Shown in pieces: positions 409 through 24,842 of a DNA stretch of 25,331 nt. Where the stretch lies: contig KL197729.1 in assembly GCA_000697665.1 (NCBI GenBank), positions 670,053 to 695,383 of the forward strand. The letters are read 5' to 3'. Made by a program: the position numbers and the translations under genes. Positions within the stretch are counted from its first letter, which is position 1. Each line of letters begins with the position of its first letter. The notes under the pieces were generated by a model. That model was not told the DNA's origin. It was given only the letters and a program-made list of their open reading frames with translations, and did not search any database. The stretch comes from Jaapia argillacea MUCL 33604. Taxonomy: Eukaryota; Basidiomycota; Agaricomycetes; Jaapiales; Jaapiaceae.

Positions 409-416
409 GCCTCATC

Positions 417-776
417 CTTGCCAATGGATCTCGGTTGAAACTCTCCGCAATTATCGATCTCTCCCTTTCGCATGCCGAGTTGGCCTTTCTCTCCGCATGC
501 GAGACCGCTACCGGTTCCGAAGATCTTTCCGAGGAGGCTGTTCACCTGGCGGCGGGGATGTTGTTGGCCGGTTATCGTGGGGTCATTGCGACGATGTGGA
601 CGATTGGAGACACGGATGCTCCTCGCATTGCAGATGGTGTTTATTCTCACATCTTGAAGGCAGGAAAACCAGACTATACCCAAGCCGCGTTTGCCTTGCA
701 TCAGGCTGTGCAGCGACTCCGTTTGCAAGGGGCGTCCTTCCTCTCTTGGGTTCCATACATCCATATTGGGTTCTAA
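417..776 (+). pseudogene. Distal C-terminal part of the split TPR-CHAT gene, with the catalytic Cys
   Basis: This is 120 codons including the stop, in the frame that begins LANGSRLKLSA. It contains the CHAT catalytic-cysteine motif LSACETATGS (Cys codon 498-500), then the segment around GYRGVIATMW, and ends WVPYIHIGF followed by TAA, typical of fungal TPR-CHAT C-termini. CHAT is a caspase-like peptidase fold using a His-Cys dyad; the matching His lies in the other half at complement 19462-19464. No start codon belongs here: the fragment is the continuation of the exon that stops at 19420, separated by a hAT insertion and an inversion. As it stands it should not be translated as part of a CHAT protein. 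An ATG at 435 exists but is internal to the domain. Confidence 0.93.
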
Positions 777-1407
777 CGGCAGCTTGAATTGAAGTTGGGA
801 TTGTCAATTGCCCTGACAACGGTGTCTGTTTGGTGTGGTTGTTGGTAAGGCCCACAAAGTACGATGTCACTAGTGCTCCTCATGTGAACTGGACTTTTTT
901 CGGGTCGTAGCGTGGATGTACATACGTCTACTGTAGTATCCCTCTTGGAAAGTTCGTCAATCTGTGTGTAAATCAAGCTGAATGAACTGTCATGATTTGA
1001 CTGGAGTTTTGGTTCGGTCGAGTTGGGAGTGACTGAGGTGGTTCACGATCTTTAACAATACTCCCTTGGCGCTACACTGTTTCATTGGATGTAGGTTGAC
1101 AATCGGTTGACAAACGAACTCATCGAAACGAGTATCGTCACAGGCTGCGCTCGTCTACCGAGTATGGTGAAAGGCACAACGAGGTTTTCAGGAGGCTCCG
1201 AACCCTTTATAAGTGGGATCCTCGGAGGGAAAGCAGAGTCGGGCATTCAACGGAATCTGACTATGGTGTTACTGCGATGGGGGCACTCTGACTTTAGTCC
1301 CATCCAGCCAATACTCCCGGAGGGCATGATGAATGAACGAACGAGACAGGTTCAATCGCTGCTGCTCCAGAACCCAATCGACCAACAACGAGCCTACCCA
1401 TCCTCAC
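777..1407. other. Downstream flank of the CHAT C-terminus, no gene recognised
   Basis: Ordinary mixed sequence that would be the 3' flank of the TPR-CHAT gene in the ancestral order. The only sizeable open frame (1107-1508, plus) has no recognisable features and overlaps an exon better supported on the minus strand. No repeat, tRNA or terminator was recognised. Confidence 0.4.
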
Positions 1408-2534
1408 CAGTCCACTGCATACATGAGCGTCAAAAGCACCACGTTGAGGTCATAACCACGATTTACGGCCCATTTTTGGGTGCCGCGATTTGTGAAGATA
1501 GGCGTTAGATGCGGAGGGGAAGGGATTGCGATAGTTTGTATGCAACTTGAGAGCAATGAATGGATTTCGTCGATGTAGTTGGAGGGCGGTGAGGACTCTC
1601 TAGGGTTGCGGATGAGCACCTAGTCGGGGAAGGTCATGTTGAGGAGAATGTGGCGAAAGGATCGGGGAAACTGAACTAACCGTAAATTGTTGCCCGATGT
1701 TGGTTTGCGTATCCCTCGAGGAATCCTACAAAAACCCGGTGAGTAACAACGCCCACTTTCTCAAAACACCAACCGAAAGCCTTAACTCAAAATCGGAATG
1801 GAAGGGAGGGGAAAAGGAACAGAGACGCACTTCATCCATTTCAAAAGGTTCCCAGATCACAAACACATGTCGCAACCCTCCAGTACCACTCCCATCTACA
1901 CCCAACCTCTTCGCATAAGCGTTACCCTTCGCCAACTCCACTTTCTTCTCACCATCCTTGGATCATGACGCCCAAATCGCCTGGAGCGAAATTCTCCGAC
2001 TCCGACTCGGCGAGAACGACGGCGTCATATTCGGAACGTACGATAGACCGATTGATGGAGGTAGCAGTTCGGTCGGTAAGAGTGTGAATTCGTGATACCC
2101 AGAAGCTATCGAGGGCGATACACGTCAATATTTATGGGAGTTGGCGAGTTATAAGGTCCTAACCTTCTTGAAGAACCCTACCGTCTTCGCTCTCCAAAAG
2201 CTCTCGATCACATAGTAAAACAGACCCCCCCCCATCTTCTACGCCTCAGTCAGTCAATCAATCAATCAAAAAGTCAAGATCGCCTCCCTCCTGCTCACCT
2301 GAACCCAAAGCCCTTCTGAATAATCCCACTCACAGCCTGACTCAAAAAATTGATGCTGCTCGTTTTTGAACGGTTAAGAACGGCGACCATGTTGAAGAGG
2401 TTATGTTTGTTCCGTGGGAAGGCGTCTAGGTATGAACGACGGAGGAGCTAGATATATGCGCACGACGTTAGCGATTAAAAAGGAAGAAAGGAGGGGCACT
2501 CACAACTTCCGGCGACTCGCCCCATTTCTCGGAC
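1408..2534 (-). pseudogene. Unidentified multi-exon host gene, 3' part, probably frameshifted
   Basis: On the minus strand a chain of short exons with plausible splice signals can be read: about 2534-2504, 2425-2299, 2238-2164, about 2100-1831, 1725-1681 and 1619-1408. Introns include 1726-1830 and 1620-1680. The peptides look like normal protein, for example AFPRNKHNLFNMVAVLNRSK, YDAVVLAESESENFAPGDLG, LRHVFVIWEPFEM and TQKWAVNRGYDLNVVLLTL. I do not recognise the family. One apparent frameshift lies near 1968, between the segments ending DLGVMI and beginning KDGEKKVELAK. The 31-nt exon at 2504-2534 and the donor GTTAGG at 2163 are weak. The gene may be a decayed remnant or a live gene whose exons I have placed imperfectly. 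Confidence 0.4.
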
Positions 2535-4025
2535 CTACACTCACATCCATTATCAGCTCAAACCTCACCCCAGAGACACGGAACCAAAAGAATAAATATC
2601 ACCTAGAACCCTTCCTCAATCGTTCCACCAAGGTATCACACCACCTCCCTCTTTCTATCACTAGCATTAAGACGACATGTCAGAGAACGAGGTTCGGAAG
2701 CGAGCGTGCGGACGTTCATGGCGTAAACGGCGAAGGAGCCTATCGTCTAACGCAATTGAAGTTGAGGGGGGTTGTGGTGAGGAGGGTAAACGACGAACCG
2801 GAAAGGGTTTACTTCTCCCTCTCGTGCAACCCATCCGTTCAACCACACCGCAGTAATTCCACTCCAGACCTTCCCAACCTAATTATTCCTGATTTCTTGG
2901 CCTAATTCCTCACACAAGATAACGCGACGAGCCAGTAGGGAAGGGTAAGCAGGCAAATTCTGAGTTAGTTTGGTTACGGTTGTGCGAGGGTTGCTTGAGA
3001 AATGACAAACTGCGCTCCTTGGAGGCTTATTGCTGGGCGGTAGAGGTGCAGGGGTGAGCGAAGGAGAAATGAGTGGGGAAGGGGACAGACCTAGTAGTTC
3101 ATGTTCCGTTAACGAGTGACTTGAATCAATAATGTTGTTCTCGGGACTAGGTAGCTTTTGATCGACTCCAAGATCGGATCTACCACTTGCTCGTCAACAG
3201 CGCGACCTCGAGATTCTGTCCCTGTTCAAACTAAACTCGCCATAAAAACATCTGCAAAGGGAATCGAAAGCAGAGCGAACGTACCGGATGACTTCGAAAC
3301 GGACCTTCTGTTGTCCAGCGCAGAGTCGCACCATGTCCTGGCACATAGCGCCAACTGCATCGTTCGGCAGGGAGTGCCCACCTCGAGATGTACCCCACCC
3401 CTCGGATTCACCTCACTCGATAATGAATAGAGGTATAATCGAAGAGTGAAGAGCACGGAGATTGGAAGAGAGAGAGACGTAGAGGGTTGCTGGGTGTGGA
3501 CGAGCGATTCGACGAGCTACGGTTACAGGTCAACTCGTCAGCTGTGATTCTAAATGCAAAGAGCCGAACGCCAGCTTACCTCGCACCAGAAGTTAGGAAT
3601 TGGGGACTGAGAGATGGACTTGAAGCATCGATTGTCTCATGCCCAGCCAACCTAACCGGCCCCTGTAAGTCACACACGCTCGACCCAACCTACACACTCC
3701 TTGTCTACATCTCACCCCAACACGTCGCGTCCACAAGCGTCCCGTGCAATCAACAAACTCACGTGCAGACTAGCGCTGACTTGTATACTACTGGTCGACT
3801 CGAGCCTCTCCCAACCACCGACCGCAATCTACCTCAATGTGCATTCGTTGTGAGCCCTTTCCTCTGCTGTCGTTGGCCGTGGTCAGGGTCTTCGTCTGAG
3901 CCGTACGTGGACCCGACCTTGGAGACCACGGAAGCGAGGGCTGAGGCTCCCTAGCCACGGCCGACCGCTCAGCGCTCATCACCATCCGTCGACGCGTTTA
4001 ACCTCACACTCTACCTTCTATGTAG
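2535..4025 (-). other. Exon-like fragments of unknown gene(s), structure unresolved
   Basis: Isolated minus-strand stretches read like protein: near 3660-3583 (LAGHETIDASSPSLSPQFL, followed by GTAAGC), near 3400-3290 (LPNDAVGAMCQDMVRLCAGQ, followed by GTACGT) and near 3215-3118 (VVDPILESIKSYLVPRTTLL). They may be upstream exons of the gene ending at 1408, but I could not join them in frame. The third is faintly like the segment of dynamin-family GTPases after the DxxG motif; I do not rely on this. The rest shows nothing I can support. Confidence 0.25.
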
Positions 4026-4269
4026 ATCAGCCCGCACCCTCCGCCCCAGCTTACACAGTAAGTCTCGTTACCCATCCCGACGGTTTACATCCGAGTTACT
4101 TCAGAGAGCCACGTGCGATCGTCGACTGCAAGTCCACCGGAGTCGCTACGCTCGTGGCGGCGGGTTCATGGAAGACATTTCATTGTTCGAGGCCACGGAG
4201 GTTACGTGCAGGCGCTGCAGCTTCGTGGCTGCTTTCACACCGGCAACGTTGGGGTTTCTCGTGCGCCCG
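4026..4269 (+). other. Possible plus-strand exon pair with a CxxC motif
   Basis: A candidate acceptor TATGTAG before 4026, donor GTAAGT at 4058, acceptor CTTCAG ending 4104 and donor GTATGT at 4270 define two exons (4026-4057 and 4105-4269). The second is exactly 55 codons and includes FMEDISLFEATEVTCRRC. No family is recognised, and neither a start nor a stop could be connected. Minus-strand fragments nearby compete with it, so the strand is uncertain. Confidence 0.2.
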
Positions 4270-4425
4270 GTATGTTTTGTTTGCATCAAACTCTTCAAAC
4301 CTAAGGCAGTCTCTGTTGGGCTGAAACGTTACGCGTTGGGTCCAAAGGTGAATCAGCAATCAGGGAGTCGTCAGACGTCTTTGCTTTCTGTCCCCACTCT
4401 TGTCGACGCGATATGGCTACCTTCA

Positions 4426-5371
4426 TCACAGCTTCTCCCTCTTCTGAATCGCTTCGATACACGCATATAACTTATCTAGCAATAAACTCCACTTGCATTT
4501 ACCCCGCCGCCTCCATCCATCGTGACCCTCTGCTTCACCCCCCCATCCAACGTCGCAACCACCAAAACCCTCCAGCATAGACGGAACCAAAGGATTTCGT
4601 AGAAACCCCCTCCCAACAAGGACCACACCCGCTTTACCCTGCTCCAATCAACAACATCCAACGCTCAAACCGCAGTCGCCGTGTGAAACTCCACTCTCAT
4701 CAACCTCCATTCGTCTCGACCTTCTGATTCACTCTCCTATCCTCGCACCCGCCTTACTCTACTCCAACGTCTCCACCACCTTTCCATTAACATACCCACC
4801 CACAGATTCAACGAGCAATTTTGACCACAAGCTTGGCGGCTGCTGAGAACGTTGAAGCGTCTGGCCCCCGAGGATTGGTCGGCGTTCAGGTTTGGTTGAG
4901 CTGGGGTGCCACCAACGACCGAGACATCGATGAGGTCAACGCCATGATCAGAGAGCATCCCACAAAGGCCCCTCGTGAAGTTAGTCTTCAAGCCTAATCA
5001 TTTGGTGAAACCCTACAAAGCACAACATTAAGCTCCTTTAGTCTGTGGTCGACGGTTCGCCTTTCGAAATGAAAACTTACCGCGAGAACGACGGCACGTA
5101 CACGATCAACGGCTTCCAAAACCAACCTCATCCTTCCCTCAAACGTCCCTCCATACCCATCCGTGCGCGATTAACGTTCGGGCTCAAGAACGAACTGCAT
5201 AGGCTCCCTAAATTGAAACCCCAACCTAAGCAAAAGGACCAAAAAGAACTGGAAGCTCAATCTCGACTTACCCAACCCACAATTGATCTCAACAACGTCA
5301 AACCCAGCCTTGACCCGTCGAGCAGCATCCTCAAAAGCATTCACAACCTGATCAATCGCCTCCATCGTCAT
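4426..5371 (-). pseudogene. NADH:flavin oxidoreductase / old yellow enzyme (YqjM-like), degenerate
   Basis: This is the remnant of an FMN-dependent ene-reductase. In order on the minus strand: 5371-5272 encodes a helix and strand like MTMEAIDQVVNAFEDAARR...FDVVEINCG, matching the family stretch before the active-site barrel strand. An intron follows (5271-5208, GTAAGT to TTTAG). 5207-5081 encodes SSFLSPNVNR, then after a one-base frame break DGYGGTFEGRMRLVLEAVD, the well-known DxYGGS-type motif. Next come HGVDLIDVS (near 4930) and LLVESVGG in another frame (near 4820), and finally LEQGKAGVVLVGRGFLRNP (4647-4590), the phosphate-binding C-terminal strand. At least two or three frame breaks and a missing N-terminal third (no substrate-binding start of the barrel upstream) indicate a pseudogene. 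The order and spacing of motifs agree with the family; activity is unlikely. Confidence 0.75.
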
Positions 5372-5853
5372 CTCCGTATGCAAAATGCGACAGTGATAAC
5401 CACGAGGAGAGTCTTGGTTGGTGTTGTTGGAATTGTTCATCGAGTCGGAGGCATAGTCGGAGTCGGATTCGTCGCGGGAATGTTTTGTCGAATCGGAGCC
5501 ATCGAACTCGGATCCGTCGTTGGGATGTTTCGTCGAGTCGGAGCCAGCGTCGGACTGTTTACTAGAACATTTGTCGAGTCGGAGCCAGAATCTGATGCGT
5601 GACCGGAACGGTGACTCAGTCGAGTCCGAGTCCGAGCTAGCGTCGCTGCTACCACGTTCCGTCAACCCACCCTTGTTCAGTCCACCCATAGGTTGAGCAA
5701 TAATACCCCACCAAACTCTCATTCCCGACCGAAACCCAACACCAAGCCCCACCCATCCCAACCTGTCTCGCCTTCCTCACCGTCCTCACCGTCCAAGCAG
5801 GGTACGGCTCCCTCCCTGACCTCACCCTCCCTTTAGCAGCAGCAGAAACATGA
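5372..5853 (-). repeat. Ser/Asp-rich low-complexity stretch upstream of the old-yellow-enzyme remnant
   Basis: Between about 5430 and 5640 the plus strand repeats variants of GTCGAGTCGGAGCC. On the minus strand this is an open frame with many Ser-Asp-Ser and Ser-Thr-Lys-His units (for example GSDSTKHSRDESDSDYASDS). It runs in frame into the oxidoreductase exon through GYHCRILHTE. It could be an expanded microsatellite within an intron or a disordered extension. No known domain was recognised. Confidence 0.5.
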
Positions 5854-7343
5854 TTAAGGCTCGAACCAGTCATCATACTCGGTTGAACACCCACAGAACC
5901 CGACGGCAAAAACTCCCACAGATGTAGCCGGTCGAACCGAGGGCGAAACAGACGTAGTACGCATATGCACCGATAACCCAGTATTAGAAGCCGTAGCCGG
6001 ACGATTGAGATTAGGATTCCAGTTCGATTTACCCGGAGCCGGGCGATCCGAGCTGGTAGTTGGAGTAGAGCTCCGAAGTAGCCGTCGCTGTCGACAGGGA
6101 CGAAATAGCAGAAAATGACCCTTGACAGAAGAAGTGATGGATGAAGGTTTCGAGGTTGATCCAGAGTAAGACGTCGAGGGATTTGAAGAAGGGTTGGATG
6201 GGTTAGAAGAAGTCGATGCGGCCAAGGGAGGAAGGAAGGCGATAAATGAGGTCCAGAATGCAAGTGTAAGATCCTCAAAAGGGCTTGTGTATGCTACAAC
6301 CAAAAACGCATCAATCACGAATCCAATCGCAAGCACGAAGAGAAGACATGAAAACGTACCGCACTCATCCAAAAAATCCAACACGATCCAGATAGCATCT
6401 TCCTCCTTCTCCTTCTTCCCGCTATCCTTCTTCCCCCCCCCCCGTCCTTATCCTTCCTACCCTCCCCATCATTCCCTTTCTCGTTCTCACCACCCACACC
6501 TCCCAACCCACTCCCTTCGAACAAACTAGGCAAACTGCCTCTCCTAGCCCACAAATCCCCCCAGCCTGTAGATATCCCTCCCCCCGCACTCCTAAACGAA
6601 TACGTCTGAGGCGAACTAACAAACCTGCTCGTAAACAAATCCGGTGGCGGTGACAAGGGCGAGGCAGGCACCAACAATACCCCGCCTCCACCCGTCCCAA
6701 CTCTCCCACCATTACTCCAGGTATGATTTCCACCGCCACCACCACCACCATGTCCCAAGGAGAAATGTATGTTTCGTCCTACTGGGCGTCCTTAGGTGAA
6801 TTTCGCACATGTAATCGAATGTTCCGATTTCGCCGAGTTGTCTGGGGTTGAAAGGAGGGTAGTAGAGGTCGATGAGGGGGAGGAAACTGCTGCTTTTGAG
6901 AGATGTTCGGAGCCGCAGAGGGCGTGAAGGGTCGAGAGGGGCCACGACTGGCCTGAGGCGGGGTCCTGGAGAGAAGGTGAGGTGGACGCTTAGACCGCGA
7001 AGAGGGAAGGGTTGAAACGGTAGCCAACAACTACCAGGAGGAAAACTAGAGCCAACAGGCTCGAAAAAATAAAATACACCAAGTGGAAAGACGTACCTGC
7101 CGGTCCTTACAAATTCGCAAGACACACCCAAAACCACGCACATCTCCCTCCACTCAACCTTGTTGTTCTTCTTTGTCGGTAAAGAAGGGGAACCCCAAAC
7201 TGGGATTGTAGGCGGGGGATCTGAAGGGGGAGAGAATCGGGTTTTGACGTTGTTAGGCTGTTGGAGGAGAATGTCATTCTTGATGGGCTACATTGCCTGT
7301 CAATCAAAACGCGAAAGATCGATAACGGCGCGGGTATGCGCAC
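5854..7343 (-). CDS. Unidentified multi-exon protein, Ser/Pro/Gly-rich
   Basis: Exon-like sequence on the minus strand begins after a possible acceptor (CAATGTAG) near 7290 and reads IKNDILLQQPNNVKTRFSPP through VEWREMCVVLGVSCEFVRTG to a donor GTACGT near 7098. Later stretches are Pro/Ser-rich (near 7020-6880), then Gly-rich with LFEGSGLGGVGG and a Lys/Glu/Asp-rich linker (6758-6430), then KEKEEDAIWIVLDFLDEC. An intron near 6355-6295 (GTACGT to TTGTAG) follows, then AYTSPFEDLTLAFWTSFIAF and a Ser/Thr/Pro-rich C-terminus ending DDWFEP at 5854. Much of the protein would be disordered. I do not recognise the family, and the middle exon boundaries (7100-6760) are unresolved. It may be intact or decayed. 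Confidence 0.35.
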
Positions 7344-7396
7344 TGGATCCTTGAGACACTGAGCGTCCTAACCCTCCCCTCGAAATATGGCTCAAC

Positions 7397-7663
7397 CTAC
7401 TCCACAACAATGCCCTCATCGACCTTGACGATCTCACCGACAGGACGCCCTTCCAACGGAGGAGCGGAGGATGGGTACTTAGAATGAGGACAGATCCTTG
7501 ATGGCCCATCGACTAAGTACCGTAGTTTGACAATCTTGGGCGATTCATGATCACCGGTTCTCAACATCGATACACAGTGGATTCTTACCAGCGACGATGA
7601 ACTCGGAGAATCCACGTACGAGGAGATAAGGTTCGGATCGATGCGAAGACGACGAAACTTCAA
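7397..7663 (-). CDS. Hypothetical small ORF or exon, 88 codons
   Basis: Open from an ATG at 7663 to a TAG at 7397, encoding IVKLRYLVDGPSRICPHSKY and a C-terminus VGEIVKVDEGIVVE. No domain is recognised. Its 5' third overlaps a sequence block that recurs twice near 24260 and 24490 on the other strand. In the block the sequence GCTGGTAAGAAT resembles a splice donor, but the frame is already open through it. It could be an exon of a larger gene or a repeat-derived frame. Confidence 0.3.
   Translation of the reverse strand: MKFRRLRIDPNLISSYVDSPSSSSLVRIHCVSMLRTGDHESPKIVKLRYLVDGPSRICPHSKYPSSAPPLEGRPVGEIVKVDEGIVVE
7582..7650 (-). repeat. Dispersed ~68-nt block, copy C
   Basis: Read on the minus strand, GCATCGATCCGAACCTTATC through GCTGGTAAGAATC matches blocks at about 24488-24557 and 24260-24320 on the plus strand. 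All three end in GCTGGTAAGAAT. The opposite strand of the block also conserves a peptide (ILTSDDELG here; ILTSNDELG and ILTSNNKLG in the others). Which strand codes is unclear. Confidence 0.5.
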
Positions 7664-9370
7664 CTTGGGCTAGTGTTGCTGCTAAGTTAAGCTAACTGGC
7701 TGCGAAGTTTTTTGATCGACACTTACCGGCAAGATAACTCACTGCAAAGTTGCTGCGAAGACTTACCTGCACTTACCAGTTGTGCAGCGGATCTATCCGT
7801 GCACATGGAGATACCGTGTATGGAAATATGGCTTCGCCTGTTGTAGCCGACCGTCGAGAGCTTTGAACGAATGTCTGAGTAGAAATACCAAATTATATTA
7901 CTATCTGTTACTACAGCTCGGGTACTGTATCATTGAGGATCTGCACAAGTTTGTCGAGCTGCCCTTGGACAAGCAACTCTCGTATCTGCTCTCGAGAAGG
8001 CTCCAGATTCTTTGCAAGCTCATCTGGGGTATCAACATCACTGCGTGAAACGCAGTTCTGTTCGAAGTTCGACCAGATGAGCTGGTCTCATCTGGAAAGA
8101 GCTGTTCGGATACTCTGATTAGATCTCCTGTGCGTATCTTGGGCCAGCTACAACTAGTCGACTGATCGCGTCTACTCCAAATGATAACCGATGACCTTTT
8201 ACTGAGGTGCGACCAGCTCTGCGCAGCTCACCTACTCAGGAGCATGATCTCGTCGTCTCTTCTTCCCCGCCACTACCCGAGTCTGACTTTGAAAATGATA
8301 TGTAATGGCCTTGCAACTTCAACTGCTCGTCACCCCCAACCACCAACACCACCCTCTGCCCTGCCCCCTCACACTACACTCCACCAGCTCGAGAATGATT
8401 AGGCTGGGGCTTCTTGGTCCCCCTTTGGTACCGTATTACGTTCTGTGGATTGTGTCGCTGCCACGTCAGCAGCCATAACGTGTACCGCACGAGCCCGCCA
8501 CTTGCTCTTCATGTAGACGTGATCTTCTGCCTCCTACCCTTCGCGGCAACTTGATCCTCGACTCCGTGACTTCCCGTCGGGCCTTGGGCGTGGCCATCGC
8601 CCTCCCCAGGTTGTCGGCTAATCCCCATTCTCGTGGTCTGCGTCATCTACCTCATCAAACAGCTCTCGTCGAATCTTGATCTCACCGAACAGCTCGCTTT
8701 GACTCATCGATGGTACATGCGAGTTTCAAAATCCCTGCATTCGAAAAGGAGTCAACATCCTCACTGGTCCGTCTTTTCTGGTCTCCTCAACTTCACTCCT
8801 CTCCCCTAAACTCTGGATAGAGGTTGATTGATCCCCCGGACCTCAGCATCCCTGGTCTTCCTCCCCTGGTTCAACTACCACCACGTATTTTCAAGTGCTC
8901 TGTCTCTGTCCCAGCCTCCTGCAGTGTTCCGCATTCGTCTCGGTCCCTACGCCAACGATGTGTATCGGCGACGATTCCTTTCGGAGAGCAAAGCATCATT
9001 CTTGGTCAATGGTTATCCACGTCCCTCGACACTGCTCCTCTGTCAGGCCCACAGGATAATGTCCTACCTTGTCCATGTATACCTGTTGTTGATCCGGTTG
9101 GTGTTTACGAGTGTCTCCCCCGGTCATGTTTACCTTACTGTAGTACTGCTGTCGTCGTGTAGATGATACAATATCATGAGTTTATCCATCATTCATTTGG
9201 GTTTATGCACTGTTTGCCAAGCTAGCTTCCAGTCGGAGCCATTAATTACTCAGATTGCAGATCTGACCAGGTTACCTAAACTCAGCTGGTCAAAGGTTGA
9301 GCAGCTGCGAGCAACGGGTGCGTTACACAGCTGATCTCATCTGCTCGCACAGTTTGATTAGCTGGGCTGA
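7664..9370. other. Mostly non-coding stretch between gene remnants
   Basis: The only protein-like frame is short, complement 7911-8042, encoding PDELAKNLEPSREQIRELL and ending in TAG; it may be the last exon of a lost gene. From 8240 to 9165 the plus strand is C/T-rich with overlapping open frames in different phases and no codon pattern I trust. Between 8060 and 8230, and between 9270 and 9420, AGCTGATC, CTGCTCG and GACCAG-type words recur, as in subterminal regions of hAT elements. They may be the two ends of the internally deleted hAT represented by 9371-9877; no terminal repeat pair was established. Confidence 0.35.
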
Positions 9371-9877
9371 TCACGCTCCGACCAGGTTGCCAAATCCCAC
9401 CTGCTCACACCTTGAGCAGCGGGCGTCTTCACGCAGTGCATGATAGTCGACCAGAAAGTCGAGCTTCTCGTGACGGAAGGTATACTTGAGGATTTGCAAG
9501 ATCTCGAGCATCAGAGGCGAGAGTTTGCAGCGACGAGCCGTAATTGTTTCCTTGCTGGACGAGAACACCTGTTCACACGGAACAGCTGTGGCTTGAACGG
9601 GAAGGACATCGAGGGCCACTCGGTAGAGCAGCGGAAATTCTGATGCATGTCCCTAAAATGTTACGATAGTCAATGTGAATTCGCAACGGCGAGTGTTGAC
9701 ATGGGACAAGAAACGAGAACTAAGACAAGAAGTACACACCTGCCACCATACAACAAGATCAAGATCCTGAGCCTCCTCTAGCCCTTGGACTGGGAGAGAT
9801 TCAACATACTTATTCAACTCCTGCTCAACTGCAAGACAATCTCTCTCGTCTGCAGCCAGGCCCCGGGCTACTCCCAT
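9371..9877 (-). pseudogene. Second hAT transposase, C-terminal dimerisation fragment
   Basis: Two exons can be joined on the minus strand: 9877-9740 (ending LDLVVWWQ) and 9652-9371, separated by an 87-nt intron (9739-9653, GTGTGT to TTTTAG). The second exon reads FPLLYRVALDVLPVQATAVP, then CEQVFSSSKETITARRCKLS and ILQILKY, the conserved hAT C-terminal dimerisation region. It is clearly a different family from the hAT at 13711-19419, whose corresponding stretch reads SSERAFSSAGITITKHRN. The DDE catalytic parts are absent: upstream the sequence changes character near 9890 and then becomes the 3' end of the P-like gene. This is therefore a truncated relic, possibly from an internally deleted element. 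Confidence 0.8.
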
Positions 9878-10093
9878 GTATGGTTGTCCGTTGGATGCCC
9901 CTCAAAACAGCCTCAAAAATGCGAAGTTTTGGGTCAGGAAAATGCAAAGTCAGACAAGGCCATCACAAATGTCACGTTTTGTCACGAAAAATGTCACGAA
10001 AAAAATAATAATTAAGGCGTCGCCCCCCAGCTTCTAAAGTGAACGCAAAGGATACAGGACTTATACGAGTCCAATAGGCTGATATGAATATAA

Positions 10094-13000: not shown

Positions 13001-13710
13001 GATCCATATGATCGGAGGAGGGTCATGAAGTTCAGATAATTTTCAGGGTAACGCATGCCATGCTTCAGCTTCTTGTTAGGATCTGTAGTTCGCTTGATTT
13101 GTTTGGCCAAAACTTGGCAGACTTCAGAGAATGTATTGTTGTCAGAGAGCTTGCCGTTCTTCGCATACAGATAGAGGTGTAAGAAGCATCCAACGGAATC
13201 ATTTCGCTTGAGACTCTGGCATGCAGCAAAGAGCAGGGGATCGGATAGTTTTGCTTGGAGAGCTCTCCCTTCGACGCCGCGGAAAGTATGAGAGGAGTAT
13301 TTCTCACGCTTTGTCTGTATCGCTCGTTGTTCGTCCTCAGGCAATGTTGCCTCCTTTGTTTTCTGACTGTAGCCTTTATCAGCAATCAGATGCCTTTTCT
13401 ATCATCTGAGAACTCACCCTGCGTACTGTGGCCTTGAACGAATCGTCATCCCTGAGGTCTTGACATCGACGACACACGCCAGATTTCTCCGTGGTTGTCC
13501 CCTCGCACTTTGTGGATCACACCCAACCTCCAGCACAATCCACTTCCCATCGAGCCCATCCCTTCAAGTTCTTGTCCAGCCTTTTTCTCTCAGCGTCTGT
13601 CCATTCTCGCTCTTGAACCTGTCAATTTCCGTCCTCTGGAACCTCGCTCTTAACCACGACATCCACCGTTTCCTCAGTGCCTATTGCATCATTGTCAGAT
13701 TCAACACTGC
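10094..13710 (-). pseudogene. P-element/THAP9-like transposase relic with multiple TGA stops
   Basis: A long degenerate transposase-type gene. Readable exons on the minus strand include about 13344-12935, 12879-12579, 12528-11952 and 11898-10710, then pieces to 10094. Introns 12934-12880, 12578-12529 and 11951-11899 have good GT-AG signals. Motifs are GDCTKVRKRLAYSTDFGSHV, then CAADGAASE, then TDPQHARKTSRNQ, then LGTELIEHFFGLAR. Their order resembles the RNase H-fold of P-element/THAP9 transposases (Asp, a D-x-x-H-x-x-K-x-x-RN site, then Glu-x-x-FFG); this family call is inference. In-frame TGA codons occur after GNGWV-type sequence near 13520, near 13597, and at 12594-12596, 12100-12102 and 11867-11869. 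Frame breaks lie near 11020 and in a CA repeat near 10268. Its N-terminal frame runs straight into the hAT border at 13710, so it is interrupted there too. Confidence 0.75.
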
Positions 13711-13733
13711 TAGTGTTGTGCAGGCTCAGGCTT
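13711..13733 (+). repeat. Terminal inverted repeat of hAT copy A, 3' side
   Basis: TAGTGTTGTGCAGGCTCAGG followed by CTT. It pairs with 19397-19419 in reverse complement, with 9 exact terminal bases and 8 exact bases further in. The same terminus occurs at 386-408 in the other orientation. Confidence 0.85.
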
Positions 13734-13779
13734 GGCTCAAAAGCCCGGGCTTAGGCTTGGCTTCGGAGGGTCAAGGCCT

Positions 13780-13870
13780 ATGGAAAAGTGAGGCTGAGCC
13801 CCACATTCAGGCTTGGGCTTGGTCGGGTCAGGCTCGGGCTTGAGCCTGGGCCCAGTGCAACAGGTTAGTC
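13780..13870. repeat. hAT subterminal GGGCTT-repeat region, 3' side
   Basis: Multiple GGCTTGGGCTTGGTCGGG-type words (one at 13810-13827) interspersed with AGGCTCGGGCTTGAGCC. The same word occurs in the same orientation at 19342-19360 near the other end. hAT transposases typically bind short repeated subterminal motifs; that role here is inferred. Small open frames in this region (for example 13737-13928) only reflect the repeats. Confidence 0.6.
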
Positions 13871-13927
13871 TCAAGCAAGCATACACACGAACAAGAGACC
13901 CTTCATTCCTTTTGATACCTATGTACA

Positions 13928-16900
13928 CTACCCCTCCTCCTCAGCATCTGAATCAAGCTCTAACTCAATTGATACCACTGTGTCCTTCTCGTTTACACTT
14001 CCTTCAACACCCTCGGGTATCTCCTCATCTCGTTCAGCATCCTCCTCGGTCAGGGCGGATGGCCCAATATCATGAAAGAACAAGTCCCTCCGATATGCGC
14101 ACTTCAAAGCTTGTAGTGCCTCAACAATATCACCTTTGAGACGGTTTCGATGTTTTGTGATAGTGATGCCAGCACTCGAAAACGCTCGCTCGCTCGAGAC
14201 AGAGGTTGCCATGATGGCCAGGTAATCACAGGTGAGAGAGGCCCACGTTGGAAACCGATGTGCATTGAGCTGTAGTGTGGTTAGCGAATGACAATGTAAC
14301 AATGAAGGGCAATGATTCGCGTACCCCCCACCACTTGACGGTCGACATCCCCTCTGGAATATCTTCATCAAGCTCCAGATACTTCTGGTACTCCTTTTCC
14401 CAAGGTTCGAGAGCTTCAGTAGGTCCACAAGTGCGAGCTGTGGTGATTGGAGGAATGGGACCATCATCGTTGTTGTCAGTCGATAATGCTGCGAGAGCCG
14501 CAGAGTATCGCCGTTTGTTTGCTTTCTTGATTGTTGCAGCAACCGCACCACTGACGTTAACCCTTTCAAACCGCTTCTTGAACTAAGTATATGTCAGCCT
14601 CGTATATGGGCGGTGAAAAGGGGAACAACTTACGATGTTCTTCGATAGCTTCAAAACCTCATTGCAGAGAGTGTCGGACCAATGTTTGTCAAAATGATAC
14701 ATGCACTTGGAGGGCTCAAGCACTAAGAGAAAATTAATTAGAAAATATATAAATCAAAAGAATGGCACATACGGATAGAGAAAACATAGGCATCGTTGTC
14801 ACCCGTCTTGTCGTAGTACTCGGCGATTTTGTCCAGACCAGCCTGTATCGCATCATAAAATCTTGAATTGGGGCCAAGCTTCGCCTGAAACGTGGTCCAT
14901 GAAGCATGGAGGTCTTCAAGTGCCGGTAATCCAAGGTGGAGGGCTGGGTGTGTTTCTGATGAGAAAAGTTGCTGTGCTTGATCTGCAATCTATGTTGGAA
15001 CATTAGCGAATGTTCATGGTTGCGAAGGGAAAACACACAGCCAAGATTTGTTGGAACACCTTAACACACTTCCATTCATCCTCCGATGGTCGAAGACTAA
15101 GCAACTTTGCAGCTTTGGCTACGTTCTTCTCAACACGTGATATCTCAAGTAGGAATTGTTTGATGTGCTACAGAGTGAACATGAGGATGGGCAAGAAAGT
15201 GACAGGCAACAACAGACATACCAGTCGAAGACTGTATGCCCGATTGAGCATCATGTATGTTGACGACCAACAAACCTTCATATCAACGACGAGTGCCTTC
15301 ATATCCTTGGATAGGATGCCAGCCGCAGCTTGGATCACATGGAAGCGTTCTTTACGTTGACTCGAAGAACGTTCCTATAGAAAGATTCGTTAACGTCAAC
15401 ACGAGGGACTAATCAGAACTGACCTTGACAGAAATTGCTCTGACGAGGCCCACCTTGTCGCGGGTGTCTGCAGATGTATCAGGCATGTGGTCATCAGGTT
15501 TGTGTGGATTGTAGTGGGGAGATTTGCTTTGGGTAGCAATCACAGCTTGGGTTGCAAGATTGACAATGTGAGCGAGGCACCTACAGAATAAATGCATAAA
15601 TCAAAGGCCAGAATTGAAGGAGGGATGCACATACCCAATTCTCTGTGACCCGCCATCATATTCTACTCGATGATTTGTATGTATGTGCTTCGCAAGCTCA
15701 CCCATCATCGTGATGTTGGGGCTCGCATTGTCACATGTCACCATGAATATCTACCAGAGAATGTCAGTGAAATGTGGATAGAACATCGACAAAGCTCACC
15801 TTGTGGGATATACCAATCCGATCCGCAACCTTGTAGAGGGCTTGGCCAAGTCGTTTGCCGTTATGGGAGTTATTCATCCGTATGAACCCAATGAGAGCAC
15901 CTTTGAGTGACCACTCATTCGGAGACTTTTCCTCAATCCAATGTGCCGTAACCGCAAAATATCCGTCAACATTACTGGCTTGCCAAGCGTCGCAAGTCAG
16001 GGAGATCAAACCACGCACAAGAGGACTCTGCCAAAATGATCAGTCTTCGCTATCATGTGAAGCTGATGGAACTCACATTTAAATGTTGCTTCAAGTCAAT
16101 GAGATATTGGCTAAATAGCCTCAGTATCTCACATTGGGTTGCCTTCCAATGAGGGATTTTGATACCATTCTTGGCCCGAGATGCAAGGTTGATCATGGTG
16201 TGAAAGGCAGGGTGCTCAAGCGCACTAAGGGGCTGGAAGGAGACACGACTTAAGTTGTAATAAAGCAAGGGTAATAGAGTACAACCGACCTGGTCAGTCT
16301 CAACAAGCCACTGGATAGCAGCAGACTTGAACGCCTCATTGGAGTAGGGAATCACTCGTTCAGATGGGTCTTGGGCATGAACATGGCCGTTGAGTGTGGA
16401 TTGGGACTTCAAGGCAGCGTCCTTCAGATCTTTTTGCGCCTTCGCATCATTCGGAAGCATTGAGATAAAGTTATGTTGCGCTGCCCATGCAAGATAGTCA
16501 GCCTATCCACCAATCATTAGTGAAGCTTAAGGAAAACATCGCAAGCAAATTCCCTACCCTGTGTCTTGACTGCATATGGCGGCGTGCTGTTGTCACGTCG
16601 CTAACCATCGTAAATCCACCAGTAGATCTTTTTCTGCTCAAAAGACAACAGCCCATTAGAAAATTGAATAAATTGAGGAGGCGATCAACTTACTTGCAGA
16701 TGGTGCAATCACGGACAGACTGTGTCCTACCATCGACAGGTCGAGAATATGGAAGGCTAAAGAAATTCTTTACATCGGCAGTGCTATCTGCCTTTCCTTT
16801 CTCTTCAACTGGCACGGATATGTTGTTGAGGTCTTTGAGCATGCCGTTTTCGTCCGTGTCGGTGACCTCTGCAGGTAGACCTTCCCCAGCACCTTTCGCA

Positions 16901-17438
16901 AGTCAAATCAGGGTTGGACAGTGATGGTATGACAGACACGACTCACCCTTTGAGGCCTTCTTCTTCTTTGGACGGGGACGTTGAGGAGCTTGACATTCAT
17001 CGCCACCTTCGTTATCGCTCTCGGATGTGAGGACCCTTCGCCGCTTGCTCGCCTTCCCACCTACGCAAAATTTCAACCATACATTCGGATCGCAAAAAAG
17101 GACTGCTTACTATGGGCCTTCTGCCGCTTACTCAGTTCCTGTTCCTCATCTGACGAGACCGAGATTGGCGACGACGGAGATTTCGATCCTACACCAATCC
17201 AGTGTCAGTGATCCAGAAGAAAGGTGGTTGTTACGAAGAAGTCACCCTCAGCGACACCAGTGGCATTGTGATTAGCATCTTCACTATCGTCAACAACAGC
17301 ACGTACAACACCAACAATGGTTCCTCGCTCCGTGTTCTCTTTGCTGTTGAGGCGACGGCTCGGTTCCAGGACTCTTGCAGTTCGTCGAGGTTGAGGTTGT
17401 GAGTTGGACGCCGATGCTGATGTCGCTGGTTCACCCAT
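13928..17438 (-). CDS. hAT transposase, 16 exons, with a 2-nt frameshift
   Basis: Model exons: 17438-17246, 17188-17111, 17060-16947, 16892-16694, 16633-16558, 16502-16290, 16232-16077, 16027-15800, 15750-15635, 15580-15424, 15374-15222, 15167-15039, 14991-14773, 14722-14634, 14582-14325, 14269-13928. All introns are GT-AG, 47-60 nt. The product (905 aa after correcting one break) has a basic stretch RPKKKKASK, a BED-type zinc finger (CTICKK...RRHMQSRH), the catalytic core LTCDAWQ...GYFAVTAHW, then VTCDNASPNITMM, CLAHIVNLA, DMKVCWSSTYMMLNRA, and the dimerisation region YLAIMATSVSSERAFSSAG. A CTCT in place of CT near 14940 (exon 14991-14773) shifts the frame by two, so this copy probably makes no full transposase. 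The start at 17438 is a plausible ATG; an in-phase splice from the upstream gene is also possible. Confidence 0.88.
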
Positions 17439-17483
17439 TCCGTCAATGATTTATCAGTTTATTCATTCAAAAAACGAGGGATT

Positions 17484-18289
17484 CTACTCACCGGCACCGC
17501 CGCGTACGAGGAAACAGATGAACAAATGTGACATTGGGCCAAGACCCAGATCTCCTACCGCTTCGTGGAGTTTGAGGTTGCGGTTTGATAGCGTGAGGAT
17601 GTGTGAGTGCCAAGAGAAGGGTGGCAGGTGTTTCCGATGTTGAAGGGTGGCGAGTATTTCAAGGATAGTTGTATCCTTTGAGACCACTACATAAAGACAT
17701 TGAGTGAGCGAATGAGTGGTGTCCTGGAGTAGTATAGTACTCACATATAGCAGCTGTGTTACTTGAATACGGCGCCACTCCTTCGAAAGGACTCCAAGTC
17801 GGAGAAGATGTGCCCATGACAAAGATCGTGAATGGTTGATCGTTGAGCAAACGGGTGAACTTGGTGGGCTGTAAGTGCGAAATGTGCATGCGGTGGCGGA
17901 TCCATCGTCCATCCAAGGGGATGAGGTGATGGAACCGAAAGAACTCCAGATGGCGACTTGAACCTGAAACATTCTCAAGTTAGCTAACCTGCAAGTGGAA
18001 CTTGGAGTGAATACTCACAAACAAGAAGAATTGAGGCTAGAGCATAGCCATAGAGAGCAGTGAAGGTTAGGGCAAGAGCGCAGATGGTGGTCGCCGTTGA
18101 ATCGATCCCCGACACACACGAAGTGGTGAATACAGAAACAATTGTCAGACCAAATATTGCGAGGAGGGGGGCAGTAGCAGCGATAGGAAGGGATACAACA
18201 ACGCCCACGACGAGGGCCCAAGTCGTGGCATGATACGCTAACGAGCGCGTTGTACTCGGTGCCAAGTTCGGGCGAACTTGCCATCGCAT
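17484..18289 (-). CDS. Small integral-membrane protein carried inside the hAT element
   Basis: Three exons: 18289-18019, 17963-17745 and 17686-17484, with introns of 55 and 58 nt bearing GTGAGT donors and TTTCAG/ATGTAG acceptors. The first exon encodes two or three hydrophobic segments (ALVVGVVVSLPIAATAPLLA, and ICALALTFTALYGYALASIL). The remainder is soluble (RWIRHRMHISHLQPTKFTRL, VSKDTTILEILATLQHR) and ends after LVRGGAGE at TAG 17484-17486. No family is recognised. It lies between the hAT 5' end and the transposase on the same strand, and hAT elements do not normally encode such a protein. A GTGAGT donor at 17491 and an AACCAG acceptor before 17425 would splice it in frame (phase 1) to the transposase, skipping the TAG, so a fusion product is conceivable. 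The start could be at 18289, because an upstream in-frame stop is present. Confidence 0.6.
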
Positions 18290-19255
18290 TCTTGTGTGGT
18301 TCTACTGTCGCAAATCTATACAAAGAGGCATCAGTTACATTCAGAGAAATGAAACCATAAGGAGGTCGGACGTACACTGGCTGGGGAAATATGGGAGAGG
18401 GGGACCTAACACTCCATTAACCCCCCTGCGCGAGCCTGATTTTAAGTCAAAATTTGAGCCAACTCAGGGACGTTGGCCGAGACAAATTGCAATCAAAGTT
18501 GCAAATATCTCCACAAAAAAGGGAGGGGGTGGACTCATGAGGCGCTATCGTCTCAGCCAATGAGACAATCGACAGGAAATAGATGATCGAGGTTGCGATA
18601 TTGCAACTGATCATGCTCGTTGGGGATACCGGTACAAACATATCTGTTCTACCTGACTCGGAAACGGGAGATTGAGATCACCATTGTCAACGTCGAGGAG
18701 GTTGCAAAAAGGTAGAGTAGCATGTTAGCCTCTGAGGGGAGGGTGTCGCGGACTCGCAACGGCGCAGTCGCGGACCATGAATCACTTGCTTCTTGCCTGT
18801 AATCTCCGTGCACTCGTGGTCCGTGCACGTCTGGTCCGTGTGCAGAACCTACACTATATAAGATCCAAGCTCTCCATCTTCCAAAAACCATTTCCCCTTC
18901 ACCCCGTTCAGTCTATTGTACCTCAAACACACTGGAATACTAGTAAATACTTGTTGTGGATTGTTTCTTTGACTTCTGTCAACTACATTGATGTTTCCCT
19001 CATCGGGACTTTCTGACATGCAATTTCAAGTTGATTCTTATTCAATCATTGAGATTTGTTGTCTGAGCCACCATTCTGCACGCTTACTGACTCGAAACGG
19101 CCAAACAGCGCGCACCGCCAAGCGGGTATGTGGTTTGTCCACGGATAGTGAACCATATCTCTGTGTTATCTTAGCGACGTTGGAAACAAGCATTGTTAAA
19201 TGGGCGATCGATTAGAGTTCGGTTGCCACAACTGTACAGGTCTAAAACTCAAATT
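18290..19255. promoter_or_regulatory. 5' non-coding region of the hAT element with a TATA-like site
   Basis: No convincing gene. At 18852-18861 ACTATATAAG could serve as a TATA box on either strand. Next to it are two GGTCCGTG-containing direct repeats (about 18819-18845) and GTGCAC words. Minus-strand frames near 18720-18660 (MLLYLFATSSTLTMVIS) and 18610-18560 are hydrophobic and could be further exons of the membrane gene, but the joins are uncertain. The subterminal repeats follow from 19256. Confidence 0.35.
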
Positions 19256-19396
19256 CTACAGACCAAAGCCCCGGCCTTTTGGGTAGGCTCGGGCTTTCTT
19301 AATTGGGAAGCCGGGCCCTAACCTCGGGCTTTCTGTGGGTTGGGCTTGGGCTTGGTCGGGCTTTTTCAGGGCTGGCTTGGTTGGGCTCAGGCTCAA
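19256..19396. repeat. hAT subterminal GGGCTT-repeat region, 5' side
   Basis: Dense GGGCTT, GGCTCGGGCTT and GGGCTTGGGCTTGGTCGGG words (the last at 19342-19360). They mirror the composition, and partly the orientation, of the repeats at 13740-13860. Probable transposase-binding sites, by family analogy. Confidence 0.6.
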
Positions 19397-19419
19397 AAGC
19401 CTGACCTGGGACAACACTA
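19397..19419 (-). repeat. Terminal inverted repeat of hAT copy A, 5' side
   Basis: Read on the minus strand it starts TAGTGTTGTCCCAGGTCAGG. It is followed outward by GATGAGGC (19420-19427), the target duplication that is matched by 409-416 in reverse complement. Confidence 0.85.
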
Positions 19420-22400
19420 GATGAGGCCGCTGTTGGTGGGATGGGAAATGTCTTGCACTCCGTGACATGCAAAGTGCACCCAGTTGGAGTCGCCCATGTG
19501 GTGAATGACGTTCTCCACAGTGGCCGCATCATCTATTAGAGGCACAAAATGGATGCCTTCAGCATGATTCTCGATGAGCTTGAGCTCTTTCCCAGTCCCT
19601 GGAAGGGGCTTGTGGTGGGGTGCATTTGGCTGTGCGATGGCGAGGAGCTGGAAACAGTGTGGTGTGGTAACCTGGGGATTGTCAATGAGAGCACTTATTG
19701 TTGGTATATACGATGAGATGACAAAGTCAAAGATGCACTGGTTCCTGGGATCTGGGGTATCATAAACACCAGCAGCGTGGATGGGAAGGAATGCAAGCGG
19801 GCCAGTCGGGCACCACCAAACGCGGGAATGGTTACTGGGTAGAGACTGTAGGAAGTCAGATCCTCAGAACGGCACGAAAATTTGGAAATGAAAAACTTAC
19901 TGTCATGGCTAGCACGTCCAGGACAGGTTTGACCACATCCGACCAGAGTTGAGCGAGGATCATCTTGAACTTTGAATTGAAATCAAGTGCCAGTGGTTTC
20001 CTTCTGACCAGCCTCTCCAACTGCGATGGCAGACGACCAGGTTCAGAAAGTAACTTGTTGAGCTCATTCTGTAGTTCTTCGGCAGTGGTTTCGGTCAGAT
20101 TGGGGAGAGGAATGTGTAGCACGTTGTCCCAGCCAGGCTTCAAAACAAGGGCATCACATTGAGCATCGCTCATATTGAGGATGACAACCGGGCCCGAATG
20201 AGCTGCACCTTTGAGTTGCGAGAATGGCTTTGGCAACAAAAATCTGTCAAAACCTTGGATTCCATGGATCTCTCCCAAAATTGCTTCCCACTCTGCAGTG
20301 AGTCGACGATGTTCCTGAGCAACCGCTTCCAAGGAGCGCTGGTCGCCAGCCTCAGACGTATGCGATGGGGTGCTTGTCTGCCGAAGTTGATTCGAGACCT
20401 GAGTAAATCGAGTTGCCAGCTGGGGTTGGACCTGTCGGAGTTCATCAATTGGAGTGCGTAGCTGCAACAACTGACCCCAAACGACTGAACGTCCTTGTTC
20501 AAGCCATTCGACAGCAGTTTCGAATTGTCTGGCCTCGATCGCAGCTGATGCAGCATCTCTGGCTAGACTTCCTGCCTCTGTAAGTTCACGATGGCGTTCA
20601 CGCATTGGAAGCCCTAGCCATGCCAATTGGGGCAGGAGGGTTAGCAAAGTGGAATACGCCATTAATAGGGATGTGTGACAAGTTTTCTGGGCCCGTTGAG
20701 CCCATATGATTCCAGCTTTAAACCGAACTGATGGAGAGCCCACATTAGACTGAGCAGCAGTGGACAGTGTCTCAATGGCCAGTTCAAAAACAGCCTGGTC
20801 ACCGAGATGCTCAAAACGGTGGAGCAATGAGATGCCGAGGTTGTTCAGACAGTGTGACTTGTCAGGGTGGCCATCGGGAGTGAGTCGCACTGCATGCTGA
20901 AGTGTCGAGATTGAATTGTCGATATCGGTGATGCTTACTGAGATGCTCAAATCGGTGGAGCAATGAATTTCCAAGGTTGTTCAGACAGCGTGGCTTGTCG
21001 GGGTGGCTGTCAGGACTGAGTCGCACAGCATCCTCTGTCACTCTGATAGAATTGTCGATGTCGGTGACATTACTGAGACGCTCAAAATGGCGGACCAATG
21101 AATTTCCGAGGTTGCTCAGACAGCTTGGCTTGGCAGAATGGCCATCAGGAGTGAGTCGCACAGCATCCTCTGTGGCCCTGATTGAGTTGTCGATATCGGT
21201 GATGTTACCGACACACTCAAGTCGGCAGAGCAATGAATTTCCAAGGTTGTTCAGACGGCCTGGCTTGTCAGGGTGGCCATCAGGGGTGAGTCGCATGGCA
21301 TCCTCTATTGCACTGATTGAATTGTCGATGTCGGTGATGTTACCGAGACGCTCAAAACGGCAGAGCAATGAGGTGCCCAGGTTGTTTAGACAGCCTGGCT
21401 TGTCAGGGTGACCATCAGGAATGAGGTGCACAGCATCCGCTGTCACTCTGATTGAATTGTCGATGTCGGTGATGTTACCAACATGCTCAAAACGGTGGAG
21501 CAATGAGGTGCCAAGGGTGTTCAGACAGCGTGGCTTGTCAGGGTGGCTATCAGGAGTGAGTCGCATGGCATCCTCTTTCACCCTGATTGATTTGTCGATG
21601 TCGCTGATGTCACTGAGACGCTCAAAACAGCGGATTAATGAGGTGCCAAGGTCATTCAGACAGCCTGGCTTGTCAGGGTGGCCATCAGGAGTGAGTCGTA
21701 TGGCATCCTCTATCACCCCGATTGAATTGTTGATGTCGGTGATGTTATTGAGATGCTCAAAATGGCGGAGCAATGAATTTCCGAGGTTGTTCAGACGGTC
21801 TGACTTGGCAGGGTGGTCATCGGGAGTGAGTCGCACTGCATGCTGAAGTGTTGAGATTGAGTCGTCGATATCGGTAATGTTACTGACATGCTCAAAGCGG
21901 CGAAGCAATGAGGTGCCAAGGGTATTCAGAAAGCCTGGCCTGTCAGGGTGGCCATCAGGAGTGAGTTGCATAGCATTCTCTTTCACCCTGATTGAACTGT
22001 CGATGTTGGTGATGTCACCAAGACGCTCAAAACACCGGAGCAAGGAATTTCCAAGGTTGTTCAGACAGCGTGGCTTGTCAGGGTGGCCATCAGGAGTGAG
22101 TTGCACGGCATTCTCTATTGCTCCGATTGAACTGTCAATATCGGTGATGTTACCGAGACGCTCAAATTGGCGGAGCAATGAATTTCCAAGATTGTTCAGA
22201 CAGCCTGGCTTGTCAGGGTGGCCATCAGGAGTAAGTCGCACAGTATCCTCTGTGGCTCTGATTGAATTGTCGATGTCGGTGATGTTACCGAGACGCTCAA
22301 AACGGCGGAGCAATGAATTTCCGAGGTTGTTCAGACAGCCTGGCTTGTCAGAATGGCCATCAGGAGTGAGTTGCACAGCATTTTTTGTCATTTTGATTGA

Positions 22401-24169: not shown

Positions 24170-24259
24170 GATAGTAGATGGGGATCAGGGCTGCAAGGGA
24201 GGGTTGGACTTTTCACCGACCAGCCGCATTACCACGCAGCGCCGCATGCATTTCATTCC

Positions 24260-24320
24260 CCTTTGCGTCTATCTGAACTTTATCTATGTCGATTTGCCAA
24301 GTTTGTTATTGCTGGTAAGA
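24260..24320 (+). repeat. Dispersed ~68-nt block, copy A (diverged)
   Basis: GCGTCTATCTGAACTTTATC through ATTGCTGGTAAGAATA. It is shorter than copies B and C by several bases in the middle and ends in the same GCTGGTAAGAAT. Confidence 0.45.
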
Positions 24321-24487
24321 ATAATAAATCTGAAGGGCCAATTGCATTGTCGCGATCGAGCGATGTGCGATTGCCACCCACAGCACGAGCACAAGTAGCG
24401 CTCATAGAACTTCATCGATTTGCTATGAATCATGGAAGACTCTGTTCAATCACATCATCGAAGCCTCGTTTCCCCAGCATGTTGTCT

Positions 24488-24557
24488 TGGCATCAATCTG
24501 AACCTTGTCTCCTAGTGCGCGTATTCTCCCGAGTTCGTCGTTGCTGGTAAGAATGAA
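24488..24557 (+). repeat. Dispersed ~68-nt block, copy B
   Basis: GCATCAATCTGAACCTTGTC through GTTGCTGGTAAGAATG. It matches complement 7582-7650 over its whole length, with a one-base gap and scattered substitutions. It also matches the more diverged 24260-24320 copy about 230 bp to its left in the same orientation. Confidence 0.5.
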
Positions 24558-24842
24558 GATACGAGTCGCGATGATCCAGAGTGACACGTCGTTGATGCTG
24601 GCCAACAAGCCTCTGAGCTTGAGGGACACCCATCCAACCGAAATCCTCAGTCGTGGATTGGGCGGACGCCCGTTCCCCATCGATTGGTTATCCTGATAGA
24701 CGCCCATTGGAACTAATACCGTTCTCATCTACCGCAGGTGTCCTCTCCCTTGTTTCAATCGAAATAGACAGGAACAACTGCCTCTCGTTCATATCGAACC
24801 CCTGGGAATTGCACACTGTTGAGTACTTTTATCCCCTATATA

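Follow-up and report, generated by a model that had tools for sequence, protein, structure and literature searches.

Ectopic recombination between transposon copies leaves opposed copies, exchanged target duplications and chimeric elements, according to the accessible portion of a study of the Galileo element in Drosophila (PMC2775673). An excerpt of a study covering the maize hAT elements Ac/Ds (PMC8225341) distinguishes non-allelic homologous recombination (NAHR), which makes no new duplication, from reversed-ends transposition (RET), which makes a new duplication and loses the stretch between the elements. CHAT proteases are found in fungal immune-like receptors and near gasdermins, as far as the available part of PMC10197012 describes them. 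Here we analyze a 25,331-nucleotide stretch of the basidiomycete Jaapia argillacea MUCL 33604 (contig KL197729.1, positions 670,053 to 695,383; hereafter the window), in which a CHAT gene lies in two pieces on opposite strands, each beside the end of a hAT element. An earlier note, made from the letters of the window, had ascribed this arrangement to a hAT-mediated inversion of 13.3 kb or to a misassembly at the same repeat; an assembly switch and a transposon-mediated inversion are both known kinds of event. The hAT insertion in the CHAT gene and the flipped 13.3-kb segment proved to be well supported. Judging by the assembled sequence, we give an even chance to the deposited order being an assembly switch at the two hAT copies.

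The window forms the final 25 kb of a 695,383-base contig (C21 in our numbering; G000:C21:670053-695383) within a 43.7-Mb assembly of 95 contigs. The bases directly left of its position 1 read N, and the left end of the hAT copy found there, copy A, is therefore not readable. Coordinates of all features are collected in Table 1.

The divided CHAT gene and its hAT element

The plus-strand frame at 369-773 matches positions 159-288 of Pfam family PF12770 (E 2.7e-18) and the minus-strand frame at 19420-19863 matches positions 25-164 (E 2.1e-14), bearing out the claim that two halves of one CHAT domain face opposite ways, each touching a hAT terminus. The halves score 66.9 and 54.1 bits against a cut-off of 24 and are complementary bar a few overlapping positions. 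The same two halves were recovered among the CHAT matches listed in a whole-genome scan, which number at least 50. Joined with the N-terminal half first, they form one open frame of 267 codons with no codon lost. Histidine precedes cysteine in this frame, as expected for a CHAT protease; both codons lie where they had been placed by the earlier note, and we take these residues (His 19462-19464, Cys 498-500) to be the catalytic ones. The array of TPR-like repeats on the same strand presumably belongs to the same gene as the N-terminal half, and a role of this TPR-CHAT gene in self-recognition or cell death is possible. CHAT-TPR genes are clustered on contigs C81, C34, C9 and C21.

The complete element, copy B, is a member of the hAT superfamily: short terminal inverted repeats, a dimerisation region and, in the flipped order, an 8-bp target duplication were each found. 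Five further hAT frames on the minus strand (14737-15060, 15767-16039, 16056-16502, 17487-18014 and 18018-18416) gave no Pfam match; the exons are short. Motifs of an RNase H-like catalytic core and a BED zinc finger were seen by eye only, with no Pfam support.

BLAST aligns the inverted arms 1-410 and 13709-14118 at 99.756% identity, and copy A differs from copy B at a single base of 408 (G at 324 in copy A, A in the other arm), in agreement with the one-base difference reported before. A third copy, on contig C27 (C27:231196-237060), consists of 303 bp and 372 bp of the two ends with N between them, the N stretch measuring 5,190 against the ~5,030 expected for the hAT interior. This copy differs from copy B at 2 and from copy A at 3 of 303 bases. 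A near-identical interior is readable once in the 43.7 Mb, in the window only. Searched at 0 mismatches, the termini of this subfamily comprise three 3' ends and two 5' ends, the latter belonging to the window copy and to C27. One more match to the 5' pattern, on C58, carries three mismatches; a backward control pattern gave two matches, so the C58 match alone is at chance level.

Comparison of flanks shows which of these ends were once partners. The sequences GCCTCATC at 409-416 and GATGAGGC at 19420-19427 are reverse complements, just as the note had read them. In element orientation, the 5' flank of copy B (GCCTCATC) and its present 3' flank (GCAGTGTT) are alike at only 3 of 8 positions; an intact separate duplication next to 13711, which the note held to contradict both of its explanations, was looked for against this 5' flank and is absent. 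At its 3' end copy A is flanked by GCCTCATC, which agrees with the 5' flank of copy B at 8/8 once 409-13710 is turned round. Among relatives with both ends readable (n=5), those on C10, C13 and C4 have 8/8 flanks, that on C58 has 6/8, with a 5' end resting on the three-mismatch pattern match, and that on C27 has 3/8 in register, a result that runs against tidy 8-bp duplications. A by-eye reading shifted by 3 bases gives 7/8 for C27; a second misjoin there was set aside on this ground, and the copy is taken as one insertion. The best match among 89 non-partner pairs (six 5' flanks by sixteen 3' flanks minus partners, with the 3' flank of L046/L050/L052 left out) was 5/8. Because of this comparison, 8/8 versus 3/8 in the window, together with the relatives and the non-partners, we conclude that the hAT family of the window copy makes 8-bp duplications and that the true partner of the 5' end adjoining the CHAT N-terminal half is the 3' end now at 408.

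Two other features of the flanks were observed. The flanks of 3' ends are alike in two copies (GCAGTGTTG at 13700-13711 of the window and GCACTGTTG at C27:231184-231196), and they form an imperfect palindrome with the terminal repeat CAACACTA. On C4, the 5' and 3' ends of a hAT relative (L051, C4:1178211, and L044, C4:1214049-1214469) lie ~36 kb apart on the same strand, yet their 8-bp flanks are identical (ATGACCCA). The distance could reflect a very large insert in the hAT, nesting of elements or a gap; of 19 small samples taken between the two ends, 13 are sequence and 6 are N.

Ancestral order in the paralogs

The joined frame aligns with its six closest paralogs from residue 1 or 2 to residue 267 with 0-3 gaps and 82-87% amino-acid identity, and with four more distant paralogs at 64-65%. 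At the joined site, the six close paralogs are gap-free within 60 columns on each side and the four distant ones carry one 3-base gap each. Twelve loci match the 13.3-kb segment from its start, counted as those with a match beginning in its first 24 bases; a search with 417-1900 returned the same 12, and CHAT genes that are too distant, such as C5:1272221, fall outside the count. Eleven of the 12 have a match to the N-terminal half that overlaps or lies 0-38 bases away, arranged as in an intact gene, and the twelfth (C9:54144) is a fragment with a C-terminal half. The two matches overlap by 7-8 bases in 6 of the 11, which is the length of the duplication and marks an empty site. Colinearity with C81 extends for ~3.1 kb on the side of the N-terminal half and, in pieces, to ~7450 of the window on the other side; the first 7 kb of 409-13710 correspond piecewise, in the same order, to sequence found downstream of other CHAT genes (C81, C34). 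The window frames scanned in these 7 kb gave no Pfam family.

Because the paralogs show a contiguous empty site and this colinearity, the sequences from 19420 onward and from 409 onward once adjoined each other, in the flipped order, before the hAT inserted. Together with the comparison of flanks, these relatives make it almost certain that the ancestral order was the flipped one. The claim that a flip of 409-13710 yields both a perfect duplication and an uninterrupted CHAT frame thus stands.

The two CHAT pieces might instead come from different genes that were never joined, with the 8-bp match arising by chance. CHAT genes are many (at least 50 matches), and a stray half is conceivable given that 1 of the 12 loci with a C-terminal half is itself a fragment. 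However, both pieces end at the same base of the domain, an 8/8 match has a chance of 1.5e-5, and the joined frame runs open and unbroken through the same six paralogs. The paralogs contradict this reading, which we rejected along with the chance match; it retains scarcely any credibility.

Table 1. Features of the window; positions count from its first letter
Feature	Position	Strand	Remarks
hAT copy A, 3' end	1-408	plus	terminal inverted repeat ...ACAACACTA ends at 408; opposed to copy B; 408-bp stub against N
Target-site copy GCCTCATC	409-416	plus	adjoins 3' end of copy A; partner of 19420-19427
Segment taken to be reversed with respect to the ancestral order	409-13710 (13.3 kb)		colinearity with paralogs
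CHAT C-terminal half	417-776	plus	Cys codon 498-500, then stop codon; against 3' end of copy A
Second repeated gene-like stretch	9856-13710	minus (from longest open frames)	relatives on C13 and C59; holds the other hAT junction
Copy B 3'-side flank AACACTGC	13703-13710	plus	not a duplicate of the copy B 5' flank
Complete hAT (copy B)	13711-19419 (~5.7 kb)	minus	9-bp perfect terminal inverted repeats TAGTGTTGT at both ends; C-terminal hAT dimerisation domain; within CHAT exon
Transposase exon	13931-14593	minus	Pfam PF05699 Dimer_Tnp_hAT, E 2.3e-13
Target-site copy (GCCTCATC on the minus strand)	19420-19427 (GATGAGGC)	minus	at 5' end of the complete hAT
CHAT N-terminal half	19420-19863	minus	His codon 19462-19464; right of copy B
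TPR-like array, 17 units of 135 bp (45 codons)	20804-23094	minus	units 75-90% identical to the first; upstream of CHAT N-terminal half, same strand

Assembly switch or inversion

The history that we propose begins close to the contig end, where a ~5.7-kb hAT inserted into a TPR-CHAT gene, within its CHAT exon, and duplicated 8 bp. A second near-identical hAT, copy A, whose 3' end is seen in the window, would have lain 13.3 kb away in opposite orientation within the other repeated gene-like stretch. Misled by the near identity of the two copies over the bases open to comparison, the assembler would most probably have placed the 13.3-kb segment between them in the wrong orientation. The CHAT gene would then carry one ordinary hAT insertion without any inversion, and the deposited order would not be that of the chromosome. 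An orientation error affecting a 13.3-kb block between opposed copies would yield exactly the present order. An artefact is favored because copy A is reduced to a stub beside N, no interior can be read in the C27 copy, and the interior is readable once; if N marks gaps, its presence in 2 of the 3 copies seen is an assembly failure at the hAT repeat. Given these symptoms we judge an artefact at least as likely as an inversion, with a switch slightly ahead. The weights given here to the switch, the inversion and other routes are matters of judgement and were not computed.

Several points weigh against an assembly switch. No N occurs at the join 13710-13711 or anywhere in the element as far as 19420, and copy B is joined to both of its flanks. 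The bridging of the C27 interior probably means that read pairs longer than the element were at hand, and such pairs should have exposed a misoriented 13.3-kb block. N tracts may not mark assembly gaps, and an assembly error is here deduced indirectly, from the product of the assembly itself.

A real inversion, all forms taken together, falls only just short of an even chance. We lend slightly less credence to the proposition that a 13.3-kb subtelomeric segment was in fact inverted by two hAT copies, perhaps by hybrid-element transposition from a single copy, leaving the TPR-CHAT (caspase-like) gene divided between two strands. One form of it, ectopic (homologous) recombination of the two opposed hAT copies, would have flipped 409-13710 and exchanged the target duplications; the CHAT halves would have been left on opposite strands, where removal of the hAT by itself would no longer restore the gene. 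The signature of Galileo inversion 2z3 in Drosophila, as presented in the accessible portion of PMC2775673, is an exchange of duplications in which no sequence is lost or gained, and the excerpt of PMC8225341 leads one to expect the same signature for NAHR. The window offers opposed, near-identical copies at both breakpoints, with arms 99.76% identical and 408 bp of copy A readable, an 8/8 match of the copy B 5' flank to the copy A 3' flank, an empty site restored without a gap, and no N across the 13711-19419 join. However, one duplication is seen exchanged and the second lies where the sequence reads N. The predicted GCAGTGTT beside a 5' terminus had no match at up to 2 mismatches, in keeping with there being no third 5' end in the readable assembly. 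Chimerism, decisive for Galileo, is beyond the reach of 408 bp with one difference, and the assembly symptoms (the stub, the N interior of C27 and the interior readable once) count on the other side as well. We hold ectopic recombination to be a tentative explanation, possible at distinctly less than an even chance.

Aberrant transposition is a third route besides the two named in the earlier note. In hybrid-element insertion, a transposase would move the 5' end of the CHAT hAT together with the 3' end of its sister-chromatid copy to a site 13.3 kb away, so that one initial element would give rise to an inversion bordered on either side by a copy. The accessible part of PMC2775673 presents this outcome as strikingly like that of ectopic recombination but with identical copies, and the available part of PMC8225341 indicates that maize hAT Ac/Ds produces inversions via alternative transposition. 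Copies A and B differ at 1 of 408 bases, against 2 of 303 for C27 and B and 3 of 303 for C27 and A, as such an origin would have it. Yet an unusual transposition is required, any two copies of recent origin should be almost identical as well, and the comparison spans 408 bp; we consider this route improbable. RET-type transposition, which involves two elements at different sites, is disfavored: it deletes or duplicates sequence, yet the CHAT frame lacks no codon. At the readable breakpoint neither a new duplication nor a loss or gain was found, the 3' end of copy A abutting the old duplication exactly.

Both orders could also exist in different nuclei, with the assembler having kept one of them. 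Besides the window itself, the best matches reach 82% for 417-1900 and 71% for 12200-13710, and in 19420-25331 only the last ~520 bases find matches of 94-100%, all of which make a haplotype mixture very improbable. When the whole segment served as query, 39 of 48 candidates were scored and the window itself was not listed, so this search is no test for a second near-identical copy.

Surroundings of the locus and known systems

The window is probably subtelomeric, to judge from the recurrence of its last ~520 bases (24812-25331) at other contig ends. In the contig search with 19420-25331, this stretch recurred at both ends of C13 and at the start of C85; it also occurs on C12, C90 and C57, and once internally in C34. 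Further repeats are nested inside the 13.3-kb segment, where pieces of 7671-9857 are 87-96% identical to copies on C7, C8, C9, C19, C30 and C55.

Relatives of the second gene-like stretch on C13 and C59 are 69-71% identical to it, with homology up to ~13702, and both extend past the junction. The C59 sequence beyond the homologous point matches only C59 and C13, so the far side of the 13710 junction is not readable. A gasdermin-like neighbour was sought in the segment by Pfam scan of 10 of its 41 frames (at least 90 codons, within 586-13398), without a match; comparison of two segment frames with the PDB gave nothing significant (one match, E 0.81, ignored), and an NCBIfam scan of five frames found no family.

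Under either explanation, a CHAT gene has been interrupted by a recent hAT insertion. A true inversion would be a clear-cut natural example of a gene split through a hAT-mediated inversion, its ancestral state evident from paralogs, and an instance of transposon-driven rearrangement in a multiplying gene family near a chromosome end. An artefact would mean that target-site duplications and paralogous empty sites can reveal an orientation error without reads, and that gene models around the end of contig C21 may be wrong. A literature search brought up no title that we recognised as a fungal hAT inversion by ectopic recombination, and we make no claim of a first.

The locus resembles fungal CHAT proteases, in the available part of PMC10197012, in its CHAT domain with histidine followed by cysteine, here behind TPR-like repeats; unlike them, the window copy is split, with no gasdermin-like neighbour in the 10 of 41 scanned frames or the two compared with the PDB. 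With Galileo 2z3 of Drosophila buzzatii, as far as the accessible portion of PMC2775673 goes, it shares opposed copies at both breakpoints, an exchanged target duplication and empty sites elsewhere. Galileo belongs to the P superfamily with 7-bp duplications; both duplications and chimeric copies were shown there and non-inverted chromosomes were sequenced, whereas here there is one duplication and one strain. The inversions of maize Ac/Ds, as excerpted from PMC8225341, are similar in superfamily, in their 8-bp duplications and in lying beside a gene, but they carry new duplications and lose the stretch between elements, while here the old duplication was merely separated. The window element agrees with the hAT superfamily in its 8-bp duplications, short terminal inverted repeats and C-terminal dimerisation domain, and in no tested feature does it differ.

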